A stretch of 55,309 bases of DNA from Frankia sp. AgB32. Its GTDB lineage: Bacteria; Actinomycetota; Actinomycetes; Frankiales; Frankiaceae. The DNA lies in NCBI RefSeq assembly GCF_023243045.1, contig NZ_JALKFX010000039.1, positions 1 through 55,309 of the forward strand. Direction: 5' to 3'. The translations under genes and the position numbers were made by a program. The notes beneath the pieces are model-generated. The model ran no database searches. It was not told the origin of the DNA and saw only the letters and a program-made list of their open reading frames with translations. Shown here piece by piece: positions 5,984-19,864 of this stretch; position 1 is the stretch's first letter, and each line of letters starts with the position of its first letter.

Positions 5984-8900
5984 TCATGGCCCGCTCGGGC
6001 CGTCGGGCCGGGCCACGAGATCGATCTCCGCCCAGACGACCTTGCCCTCGACGATCATCCTGACGCCGTGCCGCGCCGCGATCCGCGACACCAGGTCGAG
6101 CCCGCGCCCGGCCTCGTCCTCCGGCGCGGCCAGCCGGCGCCGCGGCAGCCGGCCGCCACCGTCGGCGACCTCGACGACAGCCCGGTCACCGAACCGGCGC
6201 AGGCGCACCGAGCACGTCGGCCGGCCGTGCCGCAGGGCGTTGCTGGTCAGCTCGGACAGGACCAGCACGACGGAGTCGACGACGTCCCCGGGCAGGCCGC
6301 CCTGGTTCTCCAGGGCGAGGCGGCCCTGCGCCCGGACCGCCCGCAGCCCCTCCGCCCCGTCGACGGTGACGTCGAGAAGGCTCTGGCCGGCCACCGCCTC
6401 ACCAGGCAGCCGGGCGAACAGCAGCGCCACGGCGGTGTCCTCCGATGCCGGCTCGCCGTCCCGGCCGAGACCGACGCAGGCCGCGGTCACCAGCGCGTCG
6501 AGGTCCGCCCGCGGACCGTCGCCGCGAGCCAGCACCGCCGCGAGGTCGGACACCCCGGCGTCGGCCGCCCGGCCGCCGCCGCGGACCAGGCCGTCGGTGA
6601 ACAGCGCGATGAGATATCCCTGGCCCAGCCGGACGGTGTACTCCGTGGCGTCGGCCGGTCCGGTCAGATCGGCGCGGGCGACACCGAGCGGGGAGCCGAC
6701 CGCCATGTAGAGCCGCGACACCAGGCCGTCGGGCGCGATGACCAGCGGCGGCGGATGTCCGGCACTGGCCAGCGTCAGGACGCCCGTGTCGATCTCGGCG
6801 ATCGCGTAGATGCAGGTGGCGACCTGTTCGCCCGGCAGGTCCGCGACGATGCCATCGAGCAGCGCGAGCACCTCGCCGGGCGGCAGGTCGAGCCGGGCAC
6901 ACACGCGGACGGCGGCGCGGAGCTGGCCCATCGCCGCCGCCGCCGCCACGCCCCGTCCCCGCGCCTCACCGATCACCAGCGCGAACCGGCCGGCGCCCAG
7001 ATCGATCACGTCGGACCACTCGCCGCCGGCGTCGCCGTCGTCGCCCGCGGGCAGGTAGCGGGTCGCGACCTGGAGTCCGCTCGGCGCGGCGGGGGGCGCC
7101 CCGCGCAACGTCTCGTGCAGCTCGGCGACGTCCCCGTGGACGGCTCGGTCGCGGTCGAGGCGGATGCATGCCACCCCGGCGCGCGCCGCGAGTTCGCCCA
7201 GATACTCCAGTTCCGCGGTGGTGAACGGGGCTCGGTCGCGCGCGGCGGTGAGGCTGACGACGGCCGCGATCCCGCCGGCGCCCCACACCGGAAGCACGGC
7301 GGTCGTGTGCGCGCCGAGCTGGCGGAGCCAGCGGGCGAGGTCGGCGGGCAGGTCCCCATCGCCGTCCGGGTGGACGAGGAGCCGGCCCTGGCCGTCCGCC
7401 GCGGTCGCGCGCAGCGGGCTGGTGGGCGTGGCCGCCGCCGCGCTCCACGCCGCCGCCGGTGCCGCGTCGCCGAGGGTCGGCGCGGTGCTGAGGGTCGGCG
7501 CGGTCACGACCGCGAACGGGACCAGGCGGGGCGCCGCCTCCGCGGCGGCAGCGGGGTCCGCCGCGGGGGCGGCCGGTTCGCCGGCGGGGGCACCGTCGCC
7601 GGACGCGGCATGCTCGCCGACGGCGGCCCGGGTAGCCGGTCCCGCGGACACCAGGTGCACCGCGCAGACATCGGCGATCTCGGTGACGAGCAGGTCCGCG
7701 AACGCGCGCAGCGCCTGCCGTGGATCGTCGGCGGCGCTCACGGTGGTGGTGACCCGGGTCAACAGGTCCAGCCGGTGATCGGCGGTCTCGCGGGCCGCGC
7801 GCTCGGCCTGTGCGGCCGTTCGGGCCTGGACCCCCTCGGCGGCATCCGCCAGCAGCCGGTCGTGGCCACGGGCCCGCTCGATGGCGCGCGCGGCGGCCGC
7901 GGCAACGCCGGTGAGGTGCGCCCGGTCCGCGGGCGGAAACGGGCGCGCCGCCGGGAAGCCGAAGGTCACCACGCCGAAGGCCGCCCCGTCGGCGGCGACG
8001 AGCGGCAGCATCGCCCACGCCTGCTCGCCCGCCGCGGCGACGGCGTCGGCGAGCCCGGCCACCGGCCACCGGGTGAGCAGTTCGCGCCGATCGGACAGGA
8101 ACAGGGCCCGGCCGCCGCGCACCACCTCGGCGACGGGATGCACGGCGCCGAGCGCGACATCCGGCCATGATCCGGCGGGCGGCTCGGTCGAGGTCTCGGC
8201 GTCGGCCTCGCCGGCCGAGCGGAGAAACCGCAGCTCGTCCCGTTCCGGGTCGACCAACGCGACCCCGCGGGCCACCGCGCGGGCCGCCTGGCCGCCGACG
8301 TCGAGGACTGCCGCGATCACCTGGTCGACGGTGCTCGCCGCCGCGAGCGCGACCGAGAACCGCCCGCCCGCCTCGAGGCGGGCGTCCGCCGCCTCCGCCT
8401 GCTCCACCGCGGCGGCGGCCCGCCGGCTGGCCGCCGCGGTCTGTTCACCGGCGGTACCGGCGCGCTGGTCGGCCGCCGCGGCCTGCTCGACGGCCTGCTC
8501 CGCCTGGCGCTGCGCGGTCTGCGCGCGTCGCTCCGCCCCCTCGGCCCGGTCCACCGCCTCCTCGGCCCGCCGGTCGGCCGCCTCGGCCCTGTCCACCGCT
8601 GCCTCGGCCCGCTGGTCCGCCGCCTCGGCCCGGTCCACGGCCGCCTGCACGCGCGCATCGGCCGACGCCGCCTGCTCCGCGGAGGACCCGACGCGCTGCT
8701 CGGCCTCCTCAGCCCGCCGCTGCGCCGCCTGCGCGCGCTGCTCGGTCTCGCCGGCTCGTTCCTCGGCTTCGGCCGCCCGTTGCTCGGCCGCGGTGGCGCG
8801 CTGGCGCGCCTCGTCGACGTGCTGCTCGGCCTCGCCGGCTCGTTCCTCGGCCGTACCCGCCCGCTGCTCGGCCGCGATGGCGCGGGCATCCGCCGCGTCG

Positions 8901-10105
8901 GCCCGCTGCTCGGCGTCGGTTCGGCCGGCCTCGGCCACGCGCTCGGCGCTCAGGTCGCGCAGCACGCCCAACCACTCGGCGGGACGGGCCTCACCGCCGT
9001 TCCCCGGCACCGTGGCGGGAACGGGCAGGACCCTGGCACCGACGACCCGGGGGGAACCCTCGGTCGGGGTGGAGAGCCGGAACTCGGCGTCGAACGGAGC
9101 GCCGTGCTCCAGCGCGCCGCGCCACAGGCGGGCGACCTGATCCCGGTCGTCGGGATGCACACCGGCGAGCCAGCCGGCGCCGGCGAGTTCGCCGGCCGGC
9201 TGACCGGTCACCGTGCGCCACCCGGGCAGGTCGACGTCGAGGCTGCCGTCCGCGGTCGCGTGGAAGACGTCGCTGCCAGCCGCGTCGACCAGCGCGCGGT
9301 AGCGGCCCTCGGCCCGCATCCGCTCCCGTTCGGCGACCTGCATGCCGGTGACGTCCAACGCGACGAAGGCGACCCCGACCGGGCCGAGCTGCGGGTCGGT
9401 CACCGGGAACCAGCTCGCGAGCCAGGCACGCGCCGGTGCGCCGGCAGGACCCGCGACCCCGATCTCAAGGTCGATCATCGGTTCGCCGGTGTGCAGCACC
9501 CGGCCCAGCAGAGCGTCCAGTTCCTGGCCGGTGTCGCCGAGGACCTCGCTCACCGTCCGTCCCAGGTGATCCCGGGCGGCCCGACGGTCGAGCCGGGCCA
9601 GCGTGTCGTTGACCCGCACGAACCGCCCGGAGCGGTCCAGCAGCGCGAGCCCGACCGGAGCCTGGGCGAACAGCGCGTCGAGCAGCGCGTAGGTGGCGAG
9701 GCCGGGGTCGACGCCGGTCGCGCCACTCGCCGCCGCGGAGCCGCGGCCCAACCCGGACCCGAATCCCGGGCCGGTGCCCTGGTTGGTCTGGGTGCCCGGG
9801 ACCGGCAGGCCGTCCGGGGGAAGCCGGCGGGGCCCGAACCCGTCGATCACGTCCCGGGACGGATCCGAGGGTGACCCGTTCTCCGGCCGCGGCACCATCG
9901 GCCAGCCCGGAGGCAGCACGGGCACGTCCCGGCCGGCACCCCGCTCCGGCTCGGCGCCGGACCTCGGCGCCAACGCCGCCTGAACGGGTGTCCCCGTAGC
10001 CGGGGCACCCGTGGCCCGAACGGGCCCCGCGGAATCGAACTGCGGCGCCCCATAGGGGCCGGATGCAGGCCAGACGGGTGGCTGCCCGGAGTGCGGCGAG
10101 GTCAT
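5984..10105 (-). CDS. PAS-PAS-coiled coil-GAF-GAF-SpoIIE-HATPase signalling protein
   Basis: Giant 1373-residue cytosolic protein of the RsbU/RsbW fusion type. Order, estimated by eye: Pro/Gly-rich leader (1-130), PAS-like domains (about 138-255 and 265-368), an Ala/Glu/Arg heptad array of nearly 200 residues (about 385-580, units like AEQRAGTAEERAG), two GAF-like domains (about 590-750 and 770-1005), a SpoIIE/PP2C domain (about 1005-1235) and a C-terminal anti-sigma-type HATPase (ELTSNALRHG, ADGGGRLP, GRGLDLVSR). Such proteins normally tune a sigma factor through an anti-anti-sigma partner. No such partner is visible nearby. Two SpoIIE metal motifs carry Asp-to-Glu changes (GGEWSD, IGEARGRG), so phosphatase activity is uncertain. 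The start overlaps the stop of the acetyltransferase gene (ATGA, 10102-10105). Confidence 0.88.
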   Translation of the reverse strand: MTSPHSGQPPVWPASGPYGAPQFDSAGPVRATGAPATGTPVQAALAPRSGAEPERGAGRDVPVLPPGWPMVPRPENGSPSDPSRDVIDGFGPRRLPPDGLPVPGTQTNQGTGPGFGSGLGRGSAAASGATGVDPGLATYALLDALFAQAPVGLALLDRSGRFVRVNDTLARLDRRAARDHLGRTVSEVLGDTGQELDALLGRVLHTGEPMIDLEIGVAGPAGAPARAWLASWFPVTDPQLGPVGVAFVALDVTGMQVAERERMRAEGRYRALVDAAGSDVFHATADGSLDVDLPGWRTVTGQPAGELAGAGWLAGVHPDDRDQVARLWRGALEHGAPFDAEFRLSTPTEGSPRVVGARVLPVPATVPGNGGEARPAEWLGVLRDLSAERVAEAGRTDAEQRADAADARAIAAEQRAGTAEERAGEAEQHVDEARQRATAAEQRAAEAEERAGETEQRAQAAQRRAEEAEQRVGSSAEQAASADARVQAAVDRAEAADQRAEAAVDRAEAADRRAEEAVDRAEGAERRAQTAQRQAEQAVEQAAAADQRAGTAGEQTAAASRRAAAAVEQAEAADARLEAGGRFSVALAAASTVDQVIAAVLDVGGQAARAVARGVALVDPERDELRFLRSAGEADAETSTEPPAGSWPDVALGAVHPVAEVVRGGRALFLSDRRELLTRWPVAGLADAVAAAGEQAWAMLPLVAADGAAFGVVTFGFPAARPFPPADRAHLTGVAAAAARAIERARGHDRLLADAAEGVQARTAAQAERAARETADHRLDLLTRVTTTVSAADDPRQALRAFADLLVTEIADVCAVHLVSAGPATRAAVGEHAASGDGAPAGEPAAPAADPAAAAEAAPRLVPFAVVTAPTLSTAPTLGDAAPAAAWSAAAATPTSPLRATAADGQGRLLVHPDGDGDLPADLARWLRQLGAHTTAVLPVWGAGGIAAVVSLTAARDRAPFTTAELEYLGELAARAGVACIRLDRDRAVHGDVAELHETLRGAPPAAPSGLQVATRYLPAGDDGDAGGEWSDVIDLGAGRFALVIGEARGRGVAAAAAMGQLRAAVRVCARLDLPPGEVLALLDGIVADLPGEQVATCIYAIAEIDTGVLTLASAGHPPPLVIAPDGLVSRLYMAVGSPLGVARADLTGPADATEYTVRLGQGYLIALFTDGLVRGGGRAADAGVSDLAAVLARGDGPRADLDALVTAACVGLGRDGEPASEDTAVALLFARLPGEAVAGQSLLDVTVDGAEGLRAVRAQGRLALENQGGLPGDVVDSVVLVLSELTSNALRHGRPTCSVRLRRFGDRAVVEVADGGGRLPRRRLAAPEDEAGRGLDLVSRIAARHGVRMIVEGKVVWAEIDLVARPDGPSGP

Positions 10106-12810
10106 GGGAGACGATTGTGGCCGGTGTGACCATGTTGTGCAGAACCGCCCCGGACCGCCGCCGCCTCCTCATGCGGCGCAACGGCCCAGAACCGGCGCGG
10201 ACCGGCGTCGGCCCGGGGCGCGGACCGGCCGGTGACCACCTCCGCGGACAGGACGGTCACCCGACCGGCCGAGACGACGACCGGGTCAAGAGTGAGATGA
10301 ACCACCTCGGGCAGGTCGTCGGCCAACCGCCCCACCCGCAGCAGCAGATCCTCCAGCGCCGCGACGTCCACCGGACGGGACCCGTGGTAGCCGAGCAGCA
10401 GCGGCGCCGCCCGGATCGACCGGACCAACCGGGCCGCGTCCACGTCGGTGAGCGGCAGGATGTGGTGCACCTGGTCACCCAGCAGCTCCGTTGCCGGACC
10501 GGACAGACCAAAGGACACCAGCGGGCCATACCTCGTGTGCTCGGCGGAGCCGACGACCACCGAGACTCCGGCCGGCGCCATCCGCTGCACGGCGATCGGC
10601 AGATCAGGCCCGACCTGGTCGCGCAGGGACGCCCACGCCGCCCGTACGGCCGCCGCGTCCGGCAGGTCCAGGCGTTGGCCGCGCAGGTCCGGCCGATGCC
10701 GGTAGGCGGCGGAGCTCACCTTCAGGGCCACCGGATAGCCGAGCCGCCCGGCGACCTCGACCGCGTCCTGTGCCGAGGTCACCGCCGACGCCGGCGCCAC
10801 GGTGATGCCATAGCAGTCCAGCAGCGCGGCGGCCTGGTCCGCGGGCAGCGGGCCGGAGCCGCCGCCGGCGAGGGCCCGGGCGTCCTCGGTCCGCACGATC
10901 AGGGCCGGCACCGTCCCGGTCGGTTCGGCGCGCCACTGCGCGTAGCCGACGACGCGGCGCAGCGCCGAGACCGCCGCCTCTGGTGACGGGTACGTCGGTA
11001 TGCCGACGAGGTCGACCGGCGGCTCCACGCCCTGTAGGGACGCCAGGATCGGCACGTCGACCCGCTGGGCCGCCGCTGCGACACCGGCCGTGGCCTCCCC
11101 CGGCGTCAGGATCGGCAGCCGGGCGACCGTCACGATCACCGCGTCGGCGCGGTCCGCGGCGGCCAGGACCGCCGCCGAGAAGGCGCCGGCGCTGCTGGTC
11201 GCGGGCAGCAGGACCTCCTCGACCGCGAGTCCGGCCGATTCGGCGGCGCGCGCGGTGAGCCGGACCAGCGCTCGGGAGTCTCCGACGATCGCGACCCGGT
11301 CGCCGGCCGGAAGCGGCTGGGAGGTCAACAGCAGGGCCACGTCGAACGCCTGGGAGATCCGGTCGACGCCGATCACCCCGGCCTGGCGCAGCAGCGCGTC
11401 GTCCAGCGCGGAACGACCGGAGTAGACCGTCACGACCGGTTTGCGCCGGCCGACGCGGCGCGCCAGCCGGGCGAACTTGCGAGGGTTGCCGAACGACTCC
11501 AGGTGCATGATCACCGCGTCGGTCTCGGCGTCCTCCTCCCAGTACTGGAGCAGGTCGTTGCCACTGATGTCGGCCCGGTCCCCGGCGGAGACGAACACCG
11601 ACAGGCCGACCTGGCGCCGGGAGGCGGCCTCCAGGATCGCCCCGCCGAACGGGCCGGACTGCGAATAGCACCCGATCCGGCCCGCGGGCGGCATCCACGG
11701 CACCATCGACGCGTTCAGCCCTACCTTGGGGTTCTGCACGCCCATGCTGGCCGGGCCGACGACCCGCATGCCGTCCGCGCGGGCCTCGGCCGCCAGCGCC
11801 TCGTCGGCGGGATCGTCCCGCTGGTCGGTGACCACCACCAGTCCCCACACCCCGGCCCGGCCGGACGCCGCGACCACCGCCGGCATCTCCGCCGGCGCCA
11901 CGCACACCACGGCGAGGTCCACCGGTCGGGGCACGTCCTCGATGCTCGCGTACGCACGGATGGAGGCCACCGCGGTGCCGACGGCCGCCGCCGCCGGGTT
12001 CACCGGGTACACCGGCCCGTCGAAACCACCGGCGAGCAGGTGGCGCAGCACCGCGTTGCCCACGGACGAGGCCGACCGGCCGGCGCCGATCACGGCGACC
12101 GCCCGGGGATGCAGCAGCCGGCCGATGGACGCGGCCTCCGCCCGATGCTCCCGCGCCCGCATCACCCCGACGGACCGGTCCGTCGGGGTGATCTCGAAGG
12201 ACAGGCGCACCGCGCCGGAGTCCCAGGCCCGCGAGACGGTGTACCCGGCCTCCAGGAAGACCCGGATCATCTGCCTGTTCTCGCCGAGCACGTCGGCGTC
12301 GAACCGGCGGATCCCGCGGTCCCAGGCCGCCGCGGCGAGATGCTCCAGCAGGATCGAGCCCAGCCCGCGGCCCTGCTGCGCATCCTCGACCAGGAAGGCC
12401 ACCTCGGCCTGCGCGGGACGCTCCGCCGTGCCCTCCCAGTGGGCCACCGCCACCAGGTCGTCGCCGATCACGGCGACGAGGGCGCCGCGTCGGAACTGGT
12501 CCACCACGGTCATCCGGTGCACGTCGGCGTCGGAGAGCGCCCGGCGCGCGGCGAAGAACCGAAAGTAGATCGTCTGGACGGACAGCCGCGTCCAGAAAAC
12601 CCGCAGCAACGGTCCGTCGGTCGGCAGGATCGGCCGGATGTGCGCCGTGCCGCCGTCCGTCAGGACGACGTCGGCCTCCCACTGCGCCGGATAGGCGACG
12701 GGCACCGGATCGACGGGCGGGGGCTGATCGGCAGGGGGTGTCTGATCGGCGGTCGGAGGCTGATCGGCGGACGGGGCTGGGTCGGCGGAGGGCACCGGAA
12801 CGTCGGTCAC
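10102..12810 (-). CDS. patA: Protein lysine acetyltransferase, GNAT plus ADP-forming acyl-CoA synthetase-like
   Basis: 902 residues. After a Pro/Asp-rich leader of about 35 residues comes a GNAT domain (about 40-210) with the acetyl-CoA loop QGRGLG near 145. Then come a CoA-binding Rossmann domain (HPRAVAVIGAGRSASSVG), a succinyl-CoA-synthetase-like middle and a C-terminal ATP-grasp domain. A GNAT domain at the N-terminus is the order reported for the Streptomyces lividans Pat enzyme, which acetylates AMP-forming CoA ligases. The neighbours fit: AcuC-type deacetylase immediately upstream (GTGA overlap at 12807-12810) and acetoacetyl-CoA synthetase divergent. Start is GTG. The acyl-CoA synthetase half is probably a ligand-sensing module; its catalytic state cannot be judged from sequence alone. 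Confidence 0.88.
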   Translation of the reverse strand: MTDVPVPSADPAPSADQPPTADQTPPADQPPPVDPVPVAYPAQWEADVVLTDGGTAHIRPILPTDGPLLRVFWTRLSVQTIYFRFFAARRALSDADVHRMTVVDQFRRGALVAVIGDDLVAVAHWEGTAERPAQAEVAFLVEDAQQGRGLGSILLEHLAAAAWDRGIRRFDADVLGENRQMIRVFLEAGYTVSRAWDSGAVRLSFEITPTDRSVGVMRAREHRAEAASIGRLLHPRAVAVIGAGRSASSVGNAVLRHLLAGGFDGPVYPVNPAAAAVGTAVASIRAYASIEDVPRPVDLAVVCVAPAEMPAVVAASGRAGVWGLVVVTDQRDDPADEALAAEARADGMRVVGPASMGVQNPKVGLNASMVPWMPPAGRIGCYSQSGPFGGAILEAASRRQVGLSVFVSAGDRADISGNDLLQYWEEDAETDAVIMHLESFGNPRKFARLARRVGRRKPVVTVYSGRSALDDALLRQAGVIGVDRISQAFDVALLLTSQPLPAGDRVAIVGDSRALVRLTARAAESAGLAVEEVLLPATSSAGAFSAAVLAAADRADAVIVTVARLPILTPGEATAGVAAAAQRVDVPILASLQGVEPPVDLVGIPTYPSPEAAVSALRRVVGYAQWRAEPTGTVPALIVRTEDARALAGGGSGPLPADQAAALLDCYGITVAPASAVTSAQDAVEVAGRLGYPVALKVSSAAYRHRPDLRGQRLDLPDAAAVRAAWASLRDQVGPDLPIAVQRMAPAGVSVVVGSAEHTRYGPLVSFGLSGPATELLGDQVHHILPLTDVDAARLVRSIRAAPLLLGYHGSRPVDVAALEDLLLRVGRLADDLPEVVHLTLDPVVVSAGRVTVLSAEVVTGRSAPRADAGPRRFWAVAPHEEAAAVRGGSAQHGHTGHNRLP

Positions 12811-14153
12811 CTGTCCACGATGGGGTCCAGACCGCGCAGCGGGAAAACCGCCCGCCGGGTCGCGGCGACCGCCTGGTCGAGCGGGCTGTCGGGATCACCC
12901 TCGCCGGCGTCCCACGGCCGGTAGCGCACGCCCACTCCGTCACCGAGCGTGCGGGAGATGCCGACCACGGCACCGACGGAGGGATGCCCCGTCGCGGTGA
13001 GCACCTGGCGGGGCGCGTTCGCGCGCCAGTCGGCCGGCAGCTCGGTAGCGGGCTCGAGCGGGTGGTGGGCGGCGATCGCCAGCAGCTGCGTCCACGCCCG
13101 GGGCACCACCGCGTCCAGCGCGTAGCCGCCTCCGCCGCAGGCCAGCCAGCGCCCCTCACACAGTTCGTGGGACAGCTCGTGCAACGCCTCGTAGGACGCC
13201 CGCTGCCCGTCGACGGACAACGCCAGATCGGCCAGCGGGTCCAGCGCGTGGGTGTCGCAGCCGTGCTGGGTGACGAGCACCTGCGGGCGGAACTCCCGCA
13301 GCAGCACCGGGACGACCCCGGAGAACGCCCGCAGCCAGCCGGCGTCGCCGGTGCGCGCCGGCAGGGCCACGTTGACCGAGCTGCCGGGCGCCGCCTCGCC
13401 GCCGACCTCGTCGGCGAAGCCCGTGCCGGGGAACAGGGTGCGGCCCGTCTGGTGCAGCGAGATCGTCAGCACCCGCGGGTCGTCGTAGAAGGCGGCCTGC
13501 ACACCGTCGCCGTGATGGACGTCGACATCCACGTAGGCGACGCGCCGCGCGCCCGCGGCGAGCAGCCAGGCGATCGCGACCGCCGGATCGTTGTAGACGC
13601 AGAAGCCGCTGGCCCGGTTCGCCATCGCGTGGTGCAGCCCGCCGGCGATCGACACGGCGTGGCGCGGCGGCCCCGACCACACGGCGCTGGCCGCGTCGAT
13701 CGTCCCGCCGGTGATCAGCGCGGCGGCCTCGTGCATCCGGTCGAAGACCGGGTTGTCCGAGGTACCGAGACCGAACATGGCCGCCAGCCGGGCCCTGGCC
13801 GGATCGGACGCGGCCCGCACCACGCTGAGGTAGACCGGGTCGTGGACGAGCTCGATCAGCTCGTCGGCGGCCAGCGTCGGCGCGACGACCCGCAGGCCGG
13901 GGGCATCCAGCACGCCGAGGCGCGTCGCGAGGTCCATCGTCAGCTCGAGGCGCACCGGGTGCAGCGGGTGCTGGGGGCCGAAGTCGTAGCGGGCCATCGA
14001 CGGGTCCCACGCGAGCACCGTGGGCTCGGCCGGTCCACCCGGGTCGGCCAGCACCGGCGGGTCGGCGAGCGCCGCGTCCGCCCGCGCCGGCACGGCGGGC
14101 CCTCCCGGCCGGCCCGTGTGGGCGCTCGAGGGCCCCTGCTCCGACGCTGTCAC
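12807..14153 (-). CDS. acuC: AcuC-family (class I HDAC-like) protein deacetylase
   Basis: 448-residue Zn-dependent arginase-fold deacetylase. Family marks are YDFGPQHPLHPVRLELT near the start, GGLHHAMANRASGFCVYND, YVDVDVHHGDGVQ (Zn-binding Asp and His), SLHQTGRTLFPGTG, QHGCDTHALDPLADL (second Zn-binding Asp) and GGGGYALD. In Bacillus AcuC deacetylates acetyl-CoA synthetase. Here it is the first gene of an operon with the acetyltransferase, its stop overlapping that gene's GTG start, which suggests the writer and eraser are made together. The N-terminal 40 residues are Pro/Ala-rich and probably disordered. GTG start; no strong Shine-Dalgarno. Confidence 0.92.
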   Translation of the reverse strand: MTASEQGPSSAHTGRPGGPAVPARADAALADPPVLADPGGPAEPTVLAWDPSMARYDFGPQHPLHPVRLELTMDLATRLGVLDAPGLRVVAPTLAADELIELVHDPVYLSVVRAASDPARARLAAMFGLGTSDNPVFDRMHEAAALITGGTIDAASAVWSGPPRHAVSIAGGLHHAMANRASGFCVYNDPAVAIAWLLAAGARRVAYVDVDVHHGDGVQAAFYDDPRVLTISLHQTGRTLFPGTGFADEVGGEAAPGSSVNVALPARTGDAGWLRAFSGVVPVLLREFRPQVLVTQHGCDTHALDPLADLALSVDGQRASYEALHELSHELCEGRWLACGGGGYALDAVVPRAWTQLLAIAAHHPLEPATELPADWRANAPRQVLTATGHPSVGAVVGISRTLGDGVGVRYRPWDAGEGDPDSPLDQAVAATRRAVFPLRGLDPIVDR

Positions 14154-14268
14154 GTCTCGACGGTAGCCCGAACGGGCGGCTGTGGGCAGCCGCGAACTCC
14201 GACTTCACGACGGCCGGGGCGTACAAGTTCGCCATTCGGCCAGCTGAAATGCCCTAGGGTCACTGCCC
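14154..14268. promoter_or_regulatory. Shared divergent promoter region of acuC and aacS
   Basis: Only 115 bases separate the two GTG starts, so the deacetylase-acetyltransferase-SpoIIE operon and the CoA-ligase gene must share control sequence. A TAGGGT hexamer shortly before the ligase start could be a -10 element of a short-leader transcript, but this is weak. Confidence 0.4.
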
Positions 14269-16350
14269 GTGGCAGCAGACGGAACGGAACCAGTCGATCC
14301 GGCGCCCGCAGGCGACGGCGGCCCGGCGGGGCCCGGCCGGGCGGCGGTGGCCCCCGGCACCCTATTGTGGGAGCCGAGCGCCCAGCGGGTCGCCCAGGCC
14401 GCGGTGACGAACTACCGCGAGTGGCTGGCCGCGGAGCGCGGCGTCGACCTCGCGGACGACGGGGCACTGTGGCGGTGGTCGGTGACCGACCTCGGCGGCT
14501 TCTGGGAGTCGATCTGGGACTTCTGCGCCATCGAGGGCGATCGCGGCCCCGGCCCCGCCCTCGCCGACGCCACGATGCCGGGGGCGGTGTGGTTCCCCGG
14601 CGCGCGGGTGAACTACGCCGAGAACGCGCTGAGCCGGCGCGGCCCGGCCGCCGCGGTGATCGCGGTACGGGAGGACGGCGCCGCCGCCGTCGTCTCCTGG
14701 GACGAGCTGCGCCGCCAGGTCGCATTGGCCGCAGCCGGCCTGCGCGGCCTGGGCGTGACCGAGGGCGACCGGGTCTGCGCCGTACTGCCGAACACGATCC
14801 ACGCCCTGGTGGCGATGCTCGCGACGGCGAGCATCGGCGCGGTGTGGTCGTCCTGTTCGCCGGAGCTCGGCGCGGCGGCGCTCGCGGCCCGCATCACCCA
14901 GGTGGCGCCGACGGTGCTGCTCGGCGTCGACGGCTACAGCTACGGCGGCCGCACCTTCGACAGCCTCGACGCGCTGTCCGCGCTGGCCGCGGGGCTGCCC
15001 GAGCTCGCCGCAACCGTGATCGTGCCGTACCTGTCCGCCGACGCCTTCGCCCGCGGCCGCCAGGCCGGCGTCGCGAACCTGCTCACCTGGGACGAGCTGA
15101 TGACGCCCGCGCCCGGTGCCGCCGAGCCCGAGCTGGAGTTCACCCGGGTCGCCTTCGACGCACCGCTGTGGATCCTCTACTCGTCGGGCACCACCGGCCC
15201 GCCGAAACCGATCGTGCACGGTCACGGCGGCATCCTGCTGGAGCACCTCAAGGCTCTCGCGCTGCACCTCGACCTGGGCCCCGACGACCGATACTGCTGG
15301 TTCACCACGACCGGCTGGATGATGTGGAACTACCTGGTCTCCGGGCTGCTGGTCGGTTCGACGGTGGTGCTCTACGACGGTGCCCCCGGCTACCCGACGC
15401 TGGGGGCGCTCTTCGGCCTGTCGGAGGCGCTGGAGCTGACCTGCCTCGGCACCTCCGCGGCCTATCTGCACGCCTGCCGCGACGCCGGGCTCGTGCCCCG
15501 CGAGGACGCCGACCTGTCCCTGCTGCGGACGATCGGGTCGACCGGGTCGCCGTTGTCCGCGTCGGCCTACGCCTGGGTGTACGACGCGGTCAGCCCGCAG
15601 GCGATGCTCTCGTCGATCAGCGGCGGGACCGAGGTCTGCACGGCGCTCGCCGCCGGTCTGCCGACGCTGCCCGTGCGGGCCGGCGAGATCTCCTCGCGCG
15701 GGCTGGGCGCCGCCGTGGCCGCCGTCGACGCCGACGGCAATGAGCTCGTCGACGAGGTCGGTGAACTCGTCGTGACCGCTCCGATGCCGTCCATGCCGCT
15801 GTACCTGTGGGGTGACCGGGACGGCGCCCGGCTGCGCGAGAGCTACTTCGCGGCCTACCCGGGCCGCTGGCGTCACGGCGACTGGGTCCAGATCACCGCG
15901 ACGGGGGCGGTGGTGATCGAGGGGCGCTCGGACGCGACGTTGAACCGGTCCGGCGTGCGGATCGGGACGGCCGAGCTCTACGCCGTCGTCGACGAACAGC
16001 CGGAGATCGTCGACAGTGTGGCCGTGGACACCTCCGACGCGCCGGGCGGCGGCGGGCTGCTGCTGTTCGTGGTGCTCGCCAGGCCCGGGCTCACCGACGA
16101 GCTCGACGGGCGGATCCGGGACCTCCTGCGGGAGCGGTTGAGCCCGCGGCATGTGCCCGACCAGATCATCGAGATCACCGACGTCCCGCGGACACATACC
16201 GGCAAGAAGCTGGAGGTTCCGATCAAGCGGCTGCTCGGCGGGGCGACGCTGACCGACGTCGCGAGCCTCGACGCCGTCGCCAACCCGCAGGCCCTGCTGG
16301 CTTTCGTGGCCATCGCCGAGCGCGCCCGGGCCGCCGCGGACGTCCCCTGA
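14269..16350 (+). CDS. aacS: Acetoacetyl-CoA synthetase (AMP-forming)
   Basis: 693-residue member of the ANL adenylating superfamily, closest in pattern to acetoacetate-CoA ligases: an N-terminal segment with LLWEPSAQRVAQAAVTNYREWL, the P-loop YSSGTTGPPKPIVHGHGG (about 304-321), FTTTGWMMWNYLVSGLL, HGDWVQITATGAVVIEGRSDATLNRSGVR reported here only in part as GRSDATLNRSGVRIG, and the C-terminal catalytic lysine at about residue 646. That lysine lies in PRTHTGK (640-646), a P-X4-G-K motif recognised by Pat acetyltransferases. It should activate acetoacetate with ATP and CoA, and acetylation of this lysine would switch it off. It sits divergent to the deacetylase and acetyltransferase genes. GTG start. 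Confidence 0.9.
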   Translation: MAADGTEPVDPAPAGDGGPAGPGRAAVAPGTLLWEPSAQRVAQAAVTNYREWLAAERGVDLADDGALWRWSVTDLGGFWESIWDFCAIEGDRGPGPALADATMPGAVWFPGARVNYAENALSRRGPAAAVIAVREDGAAAVVSWDELRRQVALAAAGLRGLGVTEGDRVCAVLPNTIHALVAMLATASIGAVWSSCSPELGAAALAARITQVAPTVLLGVDGYSYGGRTFDSLDALSALAAGLPELAATVIVPYLSADAFARGRQAGVANLLTWDELMTPAPGAAEPELEFTRVAFDAPLWILYSSGTTGPPKPIVHGHGGILLEHLKALALHLDLGPDDRYCWFTTTGWMMWNYLVSGLLVGSTVVLYDGAPGYPTLGALFGLSEALELTCLGTSAAYLHACRDAGLVPREDADLSLLRTIGSTGSPLSASAYAWVYDAVSPQAMLSSISGGTEVCTALAAGLPTLPVRAGEISSRGLGAAVAAVDADGNELVDEVGELVVTAPMPSMPLYLWGDRDGARLRESYFAAYPGRWRHGDWVQITATGAVVIEGRSDATLNRSGVRIGTAELYAVVDEQPEIVDSVAVDTSDAPGGGGLLLFVVLARPGLTDELDGRIRDLLRERLSPRHVPDQIIEITDVPRTHTGKKLEVPIKRLLGGATLTDVASLDAVANPQALLAFVAIAERARAAADVP

Positions 16351-17886: not shown

Positions 17887-18526
17887 CAGTGGCAAGTCCG
17901 ATGGTCGGTGCGGGTGGGACGTCTGTTTCCGTGCACATGGGAGGCAACGAACGATGTTGCGGAACCATTCCCCGTGCAGGCGCACCCGGACATCAGCGAT
18001 CGCCGGGCCTACCGGCAGTGTAGACCCCGACCCTCGAGCCGCTGAACTCGCTGTCGCGAAGACTACCCGTCAGATCCCGTCGTGTGGCGTGTTCAGCGAA
18101 CTATCTTGACCTTCTCGCGTGGCCAGAGAGCCTTCACGGGGCCCGAAGCTCACCTCTAGGTAGCGATCTACACACAATACGTGAGCCATTCTCGCCGGGC
18201 TGCCGTCCGCGCCACATTTCCCGCCCACCGCCGCCATCGGGCCGGGTCCCACCCAGGGAAGTGCCGAGAGGTGTCGGTCACCCCCGTTCGGCGGTACCCG
18301 GGCCGCGACCCCGGCGGAGCGACCCGAGGCACCGTTCGACACCGACCGCTCACGAATACCGGCCTGCCCCACCACCCGCCGCCACGAACGGGCCAGGCGT
18401 GGGCCCCGCCTGCCGATCACCCTACGCGTCAGCCCACCCCACGGACGTCGACCGAACCCGCGTTAGGCAGGCCACACCGGCGTAGGCCTACCAGTGGCCA
18501 CGGGGTGTGACGGCTACTCTCACACG
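17887..18526. promoter_or_regulatory. 640-base divergent region between hrdB and the GH63-like gene
   Basis: No credible gene; the open frames on both strands lack domain patterns. The minus strand has GTCTACACTG near 18017-18026, whose TACACT resembles a -10 element for hrdB, with only a weak -35. On the plus strand TACTCT at 18515-18520 sits just before the ATG at 18527, so the glycosidase transcript could be leaderless. Confidence 0.4.
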
Positions 18527-19864
18527 ATGTCCGTCCCCAGCGTCCCGGCAGAGCTGGCGAAGTTGCGCGAGACCGCGGTCTCCGTGCTGCGCGGCAACGA
18601 TCTAGGCGACATCACCCGGCCCTCGCCGACGCTGTATCCACACCAGTGGCTGTGGGACTCCTGCTTCATCGCCATCGGGCTGCGCCACCTCGACACCGAG
18701 CGGGCCGCAGCCGAGATCCTCTCGCTGCTGCGCGGTCAGTGGCCGAACGGCATGATCCCGCACGTGATCTTCGCTGAGACCACGGACTTCTACCACGCCG
18801 GCCCGCAGCGCTGGCGTTGCGACCGGGTGACCGCGACCGCCGGCGGCGTCCAGAGCACCGGCGTCACCCAGCCACCGATGATCGCCGAGGCGGCTGTCCG
18901 GATTGGCACGATGATGTCCAGCTCGGCCCGCGGCGGCTTCTACCGCCGGCTCTACCCCGGGCTGCTGCGCTTTCACCAGTGGCTGTACGACGAGCGGGAC
19001 CCGGACGACGAGGGCCTTGTCTCCCTGGTGCATTCCTGGGAGTCCGGGATGGACAACACCCCGACCTGGATGGAGATCACCAGACCGGTCGCGCCGCTGG
19101 GCGTGCGGGTACTGCGCCGGTTGAACGGCGACGACGCGCTGGACGCGCTGCGGCGCGATTCCAAGGAGGTCCCGCCGGACGAGCGGCTCACCTCCGGCGA
19201 CCTGTTCACGCTGTACCGGATCGTGCGCGAGCTGCGCCGGGCCCACTACAACTTCCGCGAGATTCGCCGGACCATCGTCCCGCTCGTGCAGGACGTCGCG
19301 TTCAACGCGATCCTCATCCGGGCCAACGAGCACCTGACCGCCATCGCCGCCGAGATCGGCGCGGTCGTTCCCGCCCGGCTGGCCCGGTCGATGCGCCGGA
19401 CGCGGGAGGCGATCGCCGAGCTCGCCGTCGACGGCGTGTACTACAGCCGCGACTTCCGGACCCGGACCCTGCTGCGCCACGAGACCATCGCGGGTCTGCT
19501 GCCGCTGTATGCCGGGGTCGTGCCGGAGGAGAACGTCGACGAGATGGCCAAGCGGCTCGCCTCACCGCGGTACTGGTCCCGCTTCGGCGTGGCGAGCGTC
19601 CCGGTGGACGATCCGAGTTTCCTGCCGCGCTGCTACTGGCAGGGCCCGGTGTGGGTGAACATGAACTGGCTGATCGCGGACGGCCTGGAACGTTACGGTC
19701 GGCTCGACGCCGCCGACAACCTGCGTAGCAACACCATCGACGTGATCGCCGCCTCCGGCGCCATGTACGAGTACTACTCCCCGCTCGACGGCTCCGGCGC
19801 CGGCAGCAACCGCTTCTCCTGGACCGCGGCCCTGCTCATCGACCTGCTCGCCGGAAACCGTTAG
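18527..19864 (+). CDS. GH63/MGH1-like glycoside hydrolase
   Basis: 445-residue cytosolic protein with the (alpha/alpha)6-barrel signatures of the GH63, trehalase and mannosylglycerate hydrolase-like group: QWLWDSCFIAIGLRHLD near residue 38, the HSWESGMDNTPTWME stretch near 170, a late RCYWQGPVWVNMNWL, and the ending YYSPLDGSGAGSNRFSWTAA. The conserved acidic residues in WDS, ESGMDN and the C-terminal SPLDG segment suggest an active inverting enzyme. The sugar substrate is unknown; trehalose- or glucosylglycerate-type compounds are reasonable guesses. The ATG at 18527 was chosen because an upstream start at 18494 adds an unrelated peptide. It ends at a hairpin facing nrdJ. Confidence 0.8.
   Translation: MSVPSVPAELAKLRETAVSVLRGNDLGDITRPSPTLYPHQWLWDSCFIAIGLRHLDTERAAAEILSLLRGQWPNGMIPHVIFAETTDFYHAGPQRWRCDRVTATAGGVQSTGVTQPPMIAEAAVRIGTMMSSSARGGFYRRLYPGLLRFHQWLYDERDPDDEGLVSLVHSWESGMDNTPTWMEITRPVAPLGVRVLRRLNGDDALDALRRDSKEVPPDERLTSGDLFTLYRIVRELRRAHYNFREIRRTIVPLVQDVAFNAILIRANEHLTAIAAEIGAVVPARLARSMRRTREAIAELAVDGVYYSRDFRTRTLLRHETIAGLLPLYAGVVPEENVDEMAKRLASPRYWSRFGVASVPVDDPSFLPRCYWQGPVWVNMNWLIADGLERYGRLDAADNLRSNTIDVIAASGAMYEYYSPLDGSGAGSNRFSWTAALLIDLLAGNR

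Follow-up and report, generated by a model that had tools for sequence, protein, structure and literature searches.

A probable reversible-acetylation gene pair and an adjoining sensor gene with a predicted pseudophosphatase domain in Frankia sp. AgB32

The window analysed here is the whole 55,309-nt contig NZ_JALKFX010000039.1 of Frankia sp. AgB32 (contig C207 of a 6.68-Mb assembly). Between positions 5,984 and 16,350 it carries acuC and patA, predicted to encode a protein deacetylase and a protein acetyltransferase; directly downstream, a gene for a multi-domain sensor with a SpoIIE domain (the SpoIIE gene); and a divergent gene for acetoacetyl-CoA synthetase (AACS). An earlier note, made from the sequence of the window, had read the three minus-strand genes as a complete acetylation circuit tightly coupled to a stress-type phosphatase. 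We consider it rather probable that they form two neighbouring units instead: a reversible-acetylation unit, acuC–patA, and a separately controlled sensor whose phosphatase domain is eroded and which would act in one direction only. What is new here is a predicted pseudophosphatase–kinase sensor that appears to have arisen repeatedly at one locus.

Four open reading frames (ORFs) of the window make up this stretch:

5984–10105, minus strand: SpoIIE gene, encoding a 1373-aa PAS-PAS-coiled coil-GAF-GAF-SpoIIE(PPM)-HATPase protein (domain search; order repeated in the family)
10102–12810, minus strand: patA, type II protein acetyltransferase with an N-terminal GNAT domain and a non-catalytic, NDP-forming acyl-CoA-synthetase-like C-terminal part (domains, PDB match and alignment)
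12807–14153, minus strand: acuC, class I histone deacetylase (HDAC)-like Zn deacetylase, the sole Hist_deacetyl match found in the assembly (domain and motifs)
14269–16350, plus strand: AACS gene, with K646 (16204–16206) in PRTHTGK (curated profile and sequence)

The gene structure agreed with the earlier description: both the ORFs and the junction bases gave three minus-strand genes joined by GTGA and ATGA overlaps and divergent from AACS, profile matches of the Pfam and NCBIfam type gave the domain identities claimed for the four products, and PRTHTGK was read at residues 640–646 of the AACS translation. The acuC/patA junction is AGGTGACC (GTG 12810–12808, TGA 12809–12807), and the patA/SpoIIE-gene junction is CCATGACC (ATG 10105–10103, TGA 10104–10102). 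The profile search placed PAS_4, PAS_3, GAF, SpoIIE and HATPase_c domains in the SpoIIE-gene product, and GNAT, CoA_binding, Succ_CoA_lig and ATP-grasp_5 domains in PatA. The window gave no hit to a known structured-RNA family at the gathering score. Below, g1–g7 are the genus labels of the search; g1 is the genus of the window, and is what is meant by Frankia in comparisons between genera.

The start of the SpoIIE gene and its relation to acuC–patA

The SpoIIE gene has what looks like a promoter or operator of its own. Immediately before its ATG lies the following element, in which letters mark positions that are at least 90% conserved:

10106–10146, minus strand: TT...CACAAC.....C.CACCG.C.ACAATC.....CC, candidate leaderless promoter or operator abutting the ATG, here inside the 3′ end of patA (multi-locus comparison)

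The element was present in all 29 loci that show the start of the SpoIIE gene (L009 and L013 extend no further than its first codons), with 0–2 mismatches to the search core, and the runner-up match in each locus had at least 3. Across 16 loci spread over the genera, the mean information per base was 1.35–1.77 bits at positions −40 to −1, 0.71 at −50 to −41 and 0.37–0.61 at −110 to −51. Elsewhere in the genome, the 3′ half of the element occurred only with two mismatches (one place) or three (four places).

The element lies inside patA in g1 and g2, and 50–260 bases downstream of the patA stop codon in G014 (g3), g5 and g6 (the end of patA is masked in G020). In three g3 assemblies, G044, G043 and G023 (loci L153, L154 and L155), acuC and patA are both missing and the SpoIIE gene is present. 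In G043 and G044 the pair is gone from between AACS and the sensor gene, and the element still precedes the latter; AACS lies outside L155. An acuC-like remnant was found at the locus in G043 (46% over 56 aa, E 4.7e-8) and, more weakly, in G044 (E-values are for a 1-kb search). Whole-genome probes of the three assemblies, which are 81–88% complete, yielded no acuC and only distant synthetase matches. Since the element is kept inside patA, downstream of patA, and where both genes are missing, we assign it to the SpoIIE gene. By eye, no Shine–Dalgarno sequence fits between the element and the ATG, which makes a leaderless transcript the simplest reading.

We rejected the possibility that the conservation at the junction reflects a conserved PatA tail peptide, because the same DNA precedes the SpoIIE gene where patA is absent. 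Over the last 15 codons of patA in g1 and g2 (14 sequences), an invariant codon was used at 6 of the 8 invariant residues, compared to 79 of 385 elsewhere (Fisher p 0.0017). The ATGA overlap was seen in 13 of the 18 loci that show the patA/SpoIIE-gene junction, and all 13 belong to g1 and g2. This suggests that a 4-base overlap conserved in two genera may come from a control element inside the upstream gene, so that the overlap alone should not be taken as a sign of functional coupling.

The overlap in g1 and g2 would also be expected if the three genes were a real operon whose multi-sensor product controlled PatA or AcuC directly, in the role of Bacillus AcuB. The third gene of the operon in Bacilli encodes AcuB, a sensor that inhibits AcuC (PMC13121692 and PMC13039410), and in 25 of 35 family genomes patA is found on the same contig as the SpoIIE gene. 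Such an operon is nonetheless improbable, in view of the conserved element of the SpoIIE gene's own, the gaps of about 250 bases in g6, and the presence of the SpoIIE gene in the three g3 assemblies without acuC and patA. Nor was there any SpoIIE-gene match beside acuC–patA in six loci of five other families or in L094, although L142 and L094 stop 1.2–1.4 kb past patA and say little about this neighbour.

The tight coupling claimed for the three genes is thus left unsupported by the separate start element, the gaps beyond patA in other genera, and the persistence of the sensor gene where acuC and patA are missing. At the level of sequence, the acetylation pair and the sensor appear less closely coupled than their overlap suggests, and the proposed joint control of acetyl-CoA or ketone metabolism and sigma-factor signalling found no direct support. 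The three-gene order recurs through the family, but the SpoIIE gene is separable from acuC–patA, by absence of the pair from three g3 assemblies and by gaps elsewhere.

The other 10 of the 35 family genomes fall into three sets: at the locus itself, acuC and patA are absent from G043 and G044; no match to the SpoIIE gene reaches E ≤ 1e-40 in G015 or G018; and in G002, G007, G009, G023, G049 and G050 the arrangement is cut off by contig ends or falls outside the loci examined. In G015 (g4, L077), an acuC–patA pair is followed, about 4.8 kb past patA, by a SpoIIE-domain match (36%), and there is a HATPase match on the opposite strand. G018 (g7; e.g., L080, L085 and L086), a 3.0-Mb family member, contains four near-full-length PatA-like and three AcuC-like matches, including one acuC–patA pair, and a HATPase match (40%) about 1.1 kb past one PatA.

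On the other side of the pair, acuC–patA would probably be transcribed from a promoter of the leaderless type, and the divergent AACS gene from one of its own. The boxes in question came from a scan of 28 loci for TANNNT no more than 9 nt from an in-frame start:

14160–14165, minus strand: −10-like TACCGT, conserved, 6 nt before the acuC GTG (locus comparison)
14255–14260, plus strand: −10-like TAGGGT, conserved, 8 nt before the AACS GTG (locus comparison)

In most loci the acuC box reads TACCGT and sits 6–8 nt upstream of the start; others carry variants, among them TACCTT, TACGGT, TAGGGT and TAGTGT, and L014 has none. The AACS box lies 7–8 nt before the GTG and is absent in L015 and L078. 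We infer the promoters of acuC, AACS and the SpoIIE gene alike from such patterns of conservation.

Phosphatase and kinase halves of the sensor

The SpoIIE half of the window protein has probably lost its phosphatase activity, judging from its aligned metal site. PPM enzymes have a conserved Asp in motifs 1, 2, 8 and 11 (PMC12088040), and in B. subtilis SpoIIE, D628 is the predicted M2 binder, with D746 and D795 as further metal ligands (PMC5468089). The relevant features of the sensor, all on the minus strand, are:

6425–6994, minus strand: SpoIIE/PPM domain, aa 1038–1227, predicted pseudophosphatase (Pfam match)
7019–7021, minus strand: E1029, motif-1 metal position, D in the intact genera (alignment)
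6965–6967, minus strand: E1047, at the metal position of motif 2, taken to correspond to D628 of B. subtilis SpoIIE; g1 genomes have E, G or N here (alignment)
6593–6595, minus strand: D1171, at the metal position of motif 8, retained in the window; 6 of 12 g1 genomes have E or A (alignment)
6434–6442, minus strand: E1222-D1223-T1224, motif-11 region; the DDVALL register puts T1224 at the first Asp, another register would put E1222 there (alignment)
6017–6277, minus strand: HATPase_c (RsbW-like GHKL) domain with N, G1 and G2 boxes intact (profile and motifs)
8351–8953, minus strand: coiled coil of about 200 aa, heptad-like, between PAS and GAF, judged by eye (sequence)

The PPM/PP2C fold is recognisable in the window protein, both by its SpoIIE match (E 8e-34) and by Foldseek matches of a low-confidence model to structures of Rv1364c, RssB and SpoIIE, 3ke6 among them. 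It does not have the Asp set of active SpoIIE–RsbU-type enzymes, however, as three of the four metal-ligand positions are substituted (for motif 11, depending on the alignment register). None of the 12 readable g1 genomes, counting that of the window, has the motif-2 Asp (5 have E, 6 have G and 1 has N), and all 7 readable g6 genomes have N instead. The motif-1 Asp was replaced in 11 and the motif-8 Asp in 6 of the 12 g1 genomes; at motif 11, in the aligned register, the first Asp was replaced in 4 and the second in 11. (The count leaves out the partial rows L118 and L119 and the motif-2 site of G050, and takes masked residues of L116 as missing.) The working phosphatase assumed by the earlier note is therefore hard to maintain. 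All four Asp are kept in the fully readable orthologues of g2 (6), g3 (3) and g5 (1). In an unrooted Sig–AcuC–PatA tree of 20 genomes, from which G041 and G046 were left out for a missing gene, g1 and g6 were not neighbours under any rooting, so that at least two losses of the motif-2 Asp are needed, unless the Asp was regained.

The PPM domain is not simply decaying. Of 113 columns invariant in the intact genera, 81 are unchanged in all 12 g1 rows, and conservation of the switch-helix region is no lower than that of the remainder (mean g1 identity to the intact set 0.674 vs 0.640). The median ratio of nonsynonymous to synonymous substitution rates (dN/dS) in g1 was like that of its neighbours: 0.242 for PPM, 0.272 for HATPase and 0.265 for PatA, by a simple and rough NG86 estimate on 8 genomes. 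Pairs with dS ≤ 0.05 or saturation were dropped; in the sigma-gene row, the g2 estimate looks unreliable (mean dN 0.453, 7 pairs), and this row was set aside. Five SpoIIE places (L001–L005) were read among the more numerous ones in the window's own genome, and these paralogues keep the Asp motifs over the aligned part, which extends through motif 11 in four and reaches motif 8 in L003.

We also considered that the SpoIIE domain might still be active, with Glu in place of Asp, in an ordinary partner-switch regulator of a stress sigma factor. The window substitutions at motifs 1 and 2 are indeed D to E, GHPPPL and TDGL are kept, and the low dN/dS fits. Against this, the same sites are occupied by G, N, Q, A or P in other g1 genomes and the orthologues of g2, g3 and g5 retain the full Asp set, and we regard an active domain as very doubtful.

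The kinase half is predicted to be a GHKL/RsbW-like kinase from SELTSNALRHG, VADGGG and DEAGRGL, and the N, G1 and G2 boxes are intact in all readable rows except G016 of g5. G016 (L078) has lost the N-box Asn and the G2 box, and keeps the phosphatase Asp. The RsbU–RsbW part of Rv1364c is the nearest solved relative, being the only PDB sequence match and also matching by fold (weak model). The profile search matched no STAS domain in the SpoIIE-gene product; STAS proteins are encoded at five places in the genome.

The sensor was probably bifunctional ancestrally, with a PPM phosphatase and an RsbW-like kinase of the Rv1364c kind, its phosphatase metal site having eroded in g1 and separately in g6 with fold and kinase motifs kept. 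In Frankia, it probably no longer serves as a phosphatase but as a one-way kinase or adaptor. One-way action is favoured by erosion of the metal site while fold and kinase motifs are kept, and by the precedents of Rv1364c and RssB. The Frankia sensor would then be a signal-gated kinase, or a binding partner, of STAS anti-anti-sigma proteins, an output that we infer, and the PPM domain could, like that of RssB, relay signals allosterically or provide a docking site.

Several points weigh against two units with an eroded phosphatase. Where the genes overlap, in g1 and g2, transcripts of acuC–patA are likely to run on into the SpoIIE gene, and a functional link would also explain the shared contig in 25 of the 35 family genomes. 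The −10-like boxes of acuC and AACS came from a deliberate TANNNT search near starts, and in the start element, the hexamers CACAAC and NACAAT are 14 nt apart, which is no standard sigma-70 spacing. Remote SpoIIE-domain (G015) and HATPase (G018) matches near PatA, in two family members lacking the orthologue, would point the same way. The AlphaFold model, with a mean pLDDT of 61.5, is a weak one and does not allow the metal geometry to be judged. Finally, the window protein keeps acidic residues (E, E, D and nearby E/D), so that weak metal binding may persist.

A wider proposal, which we think unlikely in its entirety, is that a bifunctional sensor turned one-way at least three times at a fixed locus (by loss of the phosphatase in g1 and g6, and of the kinase in g5, in one genome), the Frankia form being a PAS/GAF-gated pseudophosphatase adaptor, an RssB-like relay linking the acetyl-CoA or redox state either with a STAS/sigma module or with AcuC–PatA. 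Whatever its output, the orthologues form a series at one locus, ranging from proteins with two intact halves to ones that have lost either the phosphatase or the kinase motifs. With such a series it can be tested which of the activities counts in a fused partner-switch protein, and how a PPM domain comes to regulate without catalysis. Among the open-access papers searched, we found none naming Frankia with SpoIIE and AcuC or an acetyltransferase, which is no proof of absence.

The acetylation set and the wider neighbourhood

PatA, AcuC and AACS are likely to be writer, eraser and substrate, and their placement side by side, as the earlier note had it, stands. The GNAT domain of PatA matches 4nxy (E 2.4e-45) and 4u5y (E 1e-44), which we take to be S. 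lividans PatA, and the best named match of the protein is in Frankia sp. AgKG'84/4 (92% identity). The glutamate of its AEVAFLV aligns to chain residue 123 of 4nxy, presumably the catalytic residue. The synthetase part has no counterpart in the alignment of the SHTG loop of 8wzu, the histidine loop of active synthetases, which we take to carry the catalytic His. PatA is thus of type II, like the S. lividans enzyme (SlPatA): GNAT comes first, followed by an NDP-forming acyl-CoA-synthetase-like region from which the catalytic histidine is gone. Class I HDAC-like enzymes have the catalytic motifs HH, DxH, D and Y; AcuC carries GGLHHAM, VDVDVHHGDG, HGCDTHALDPL and GGGGYAL (Hist_deacetyl E 3.2e-82). 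Two SIR2 matches accompany the single Hist_deacetyl match in the genome. AACS scored 768.8 bits against TIGR01217 (curated equivalog cut-off 520.9), and lies above both acetoacetate–CoA ligase cut-offs.

The claim that the Pat enzyme of S. lividans acetylates acetoacetyl-CoA synthetase is borne out by a review, which gives AacS K617 as the site, a 34-fold preference over Acs, and reversal by a sirtuin-type enzyme (PMC8007912). By analogy, PatA would acetylate the catalytic K646 of AACS when acetyl-CoA is plentiful and stop the ligase, and AcuC, possibly together with a sirtuin, would remove the mark. The layout and motifs of this unit are observed; its enzyme activities and promoters are predictions from them.

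The P-X4-G-K form of PRTHTGK weighs little here. We rejected PX4GK as a Pat-specific signature, because it is a general motif of ANL ligases. The genome has 46 PF00501 places; of 20 AMP-forming ligases read from these besides AACS, 4 passed a strict context test, 16 had an in-frame PX4GK of any kind, and 15 showed the ANL lysine motif by eye (L169 looks like a chance reading frame).

The order GH (glycoside hydrolase) – sigma-70 – AACS (opposite strand) – acuC – patA – SpoIIE gene – ABC ATPase – NYN-like ORF is repeated throughout the family, more than chance would give; NYN-like is our own label for an ORF with no Pfam or NCBIfam match. The patA start and acuC stop overlap in the same register in 14 of 21 loci. 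In the class, family members included, acuC (E ≤ 1e-50) occurs in at least 152 and PatA (E ≤ 1e-90) in at least 126 of 197 genomes. In G035, acuC and patA are adjacent in reverse order, with a weaker PatA match. The glucosylglycerate-hydrolase-like gene beside the sigma gene (18494–19864 in the window) is inverted in g6 (L079, L083, L148, L149 and L157 compared).

These genes might also be neighbours by inherited synteny only, the sigma-70 gene included, with AACS, the acetylation pair and the sensor functionally unlinked. A sigma-70 gene 57–61% identical to that of the window lies near acuC–patA in other actinobacterial families too (L094, L144, L145 and L146); part of the neighbourhood is therefore older than the family, and a sigma gene close by does not set the sensor apart. 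Moreover, among the matches listed for 26 non-family genomes, picked by eye for having acuC and patA on one contig, the two genes are far apart in 20. In the remaining six (G032, G116, G124, G136, G164 and G215, from five families), however, they are adjacent. Their joint absence from the three g3 assemblies and the reported acetylation of AacS by SlPatA likewise tell against purely inherited proximity, which we judge quite improbable.

Comparison with known systems

The layout and the enzyme pair of the acetylation unit are already known: the plan is that of Bacillus acsA–acuABC, and the pair is that of S. lividans PatA and AacS. As in Bacillus, an AMP-forming CoA ligase gene is divergent from an operon encoding an acetyltransferase and an HDAC-like AcuC. 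The ligase here is an acetoacetyl-CoA synthetase instead of an acetyl-CoA synthetase, the writer is a large type II PatA instead of the small AcuA, and none of the four proteins is an AcuB (Bateman and ACT domains). With S. lividans PatA/AacS, the locus shares the GNAT-first, synthetase-second architecture, the AEVAFLV glutamate at 4nxy residue 123 and the lysine motif of the ligase; it differs in that acuC adjoins.

The sensor resembles M. tuberculosis Rv1364c, an RsbU–RsbW-type fusion and its best PDB sequence and fold match, in joining PAS, a PPM phosphatase domain and a GHKL kinase in one chain, but has no STAS match, has added GAF domains and a long coiled coil, and has substituted metal ligands. 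RssB is a PP2C-fold protein acting as an adaptor, whose E. coli form is without active-site residues (PMC5468089 and PMC7226468). The predicted Frankia sensor shares this use of the PPM fold, and RssB structures were among its fold matches (weak model). Unlike the sensor, E. coli RssB has a receiver domain in place of PAS/GAF and no fused kinase, and it acts in sigma-S proteolysis.

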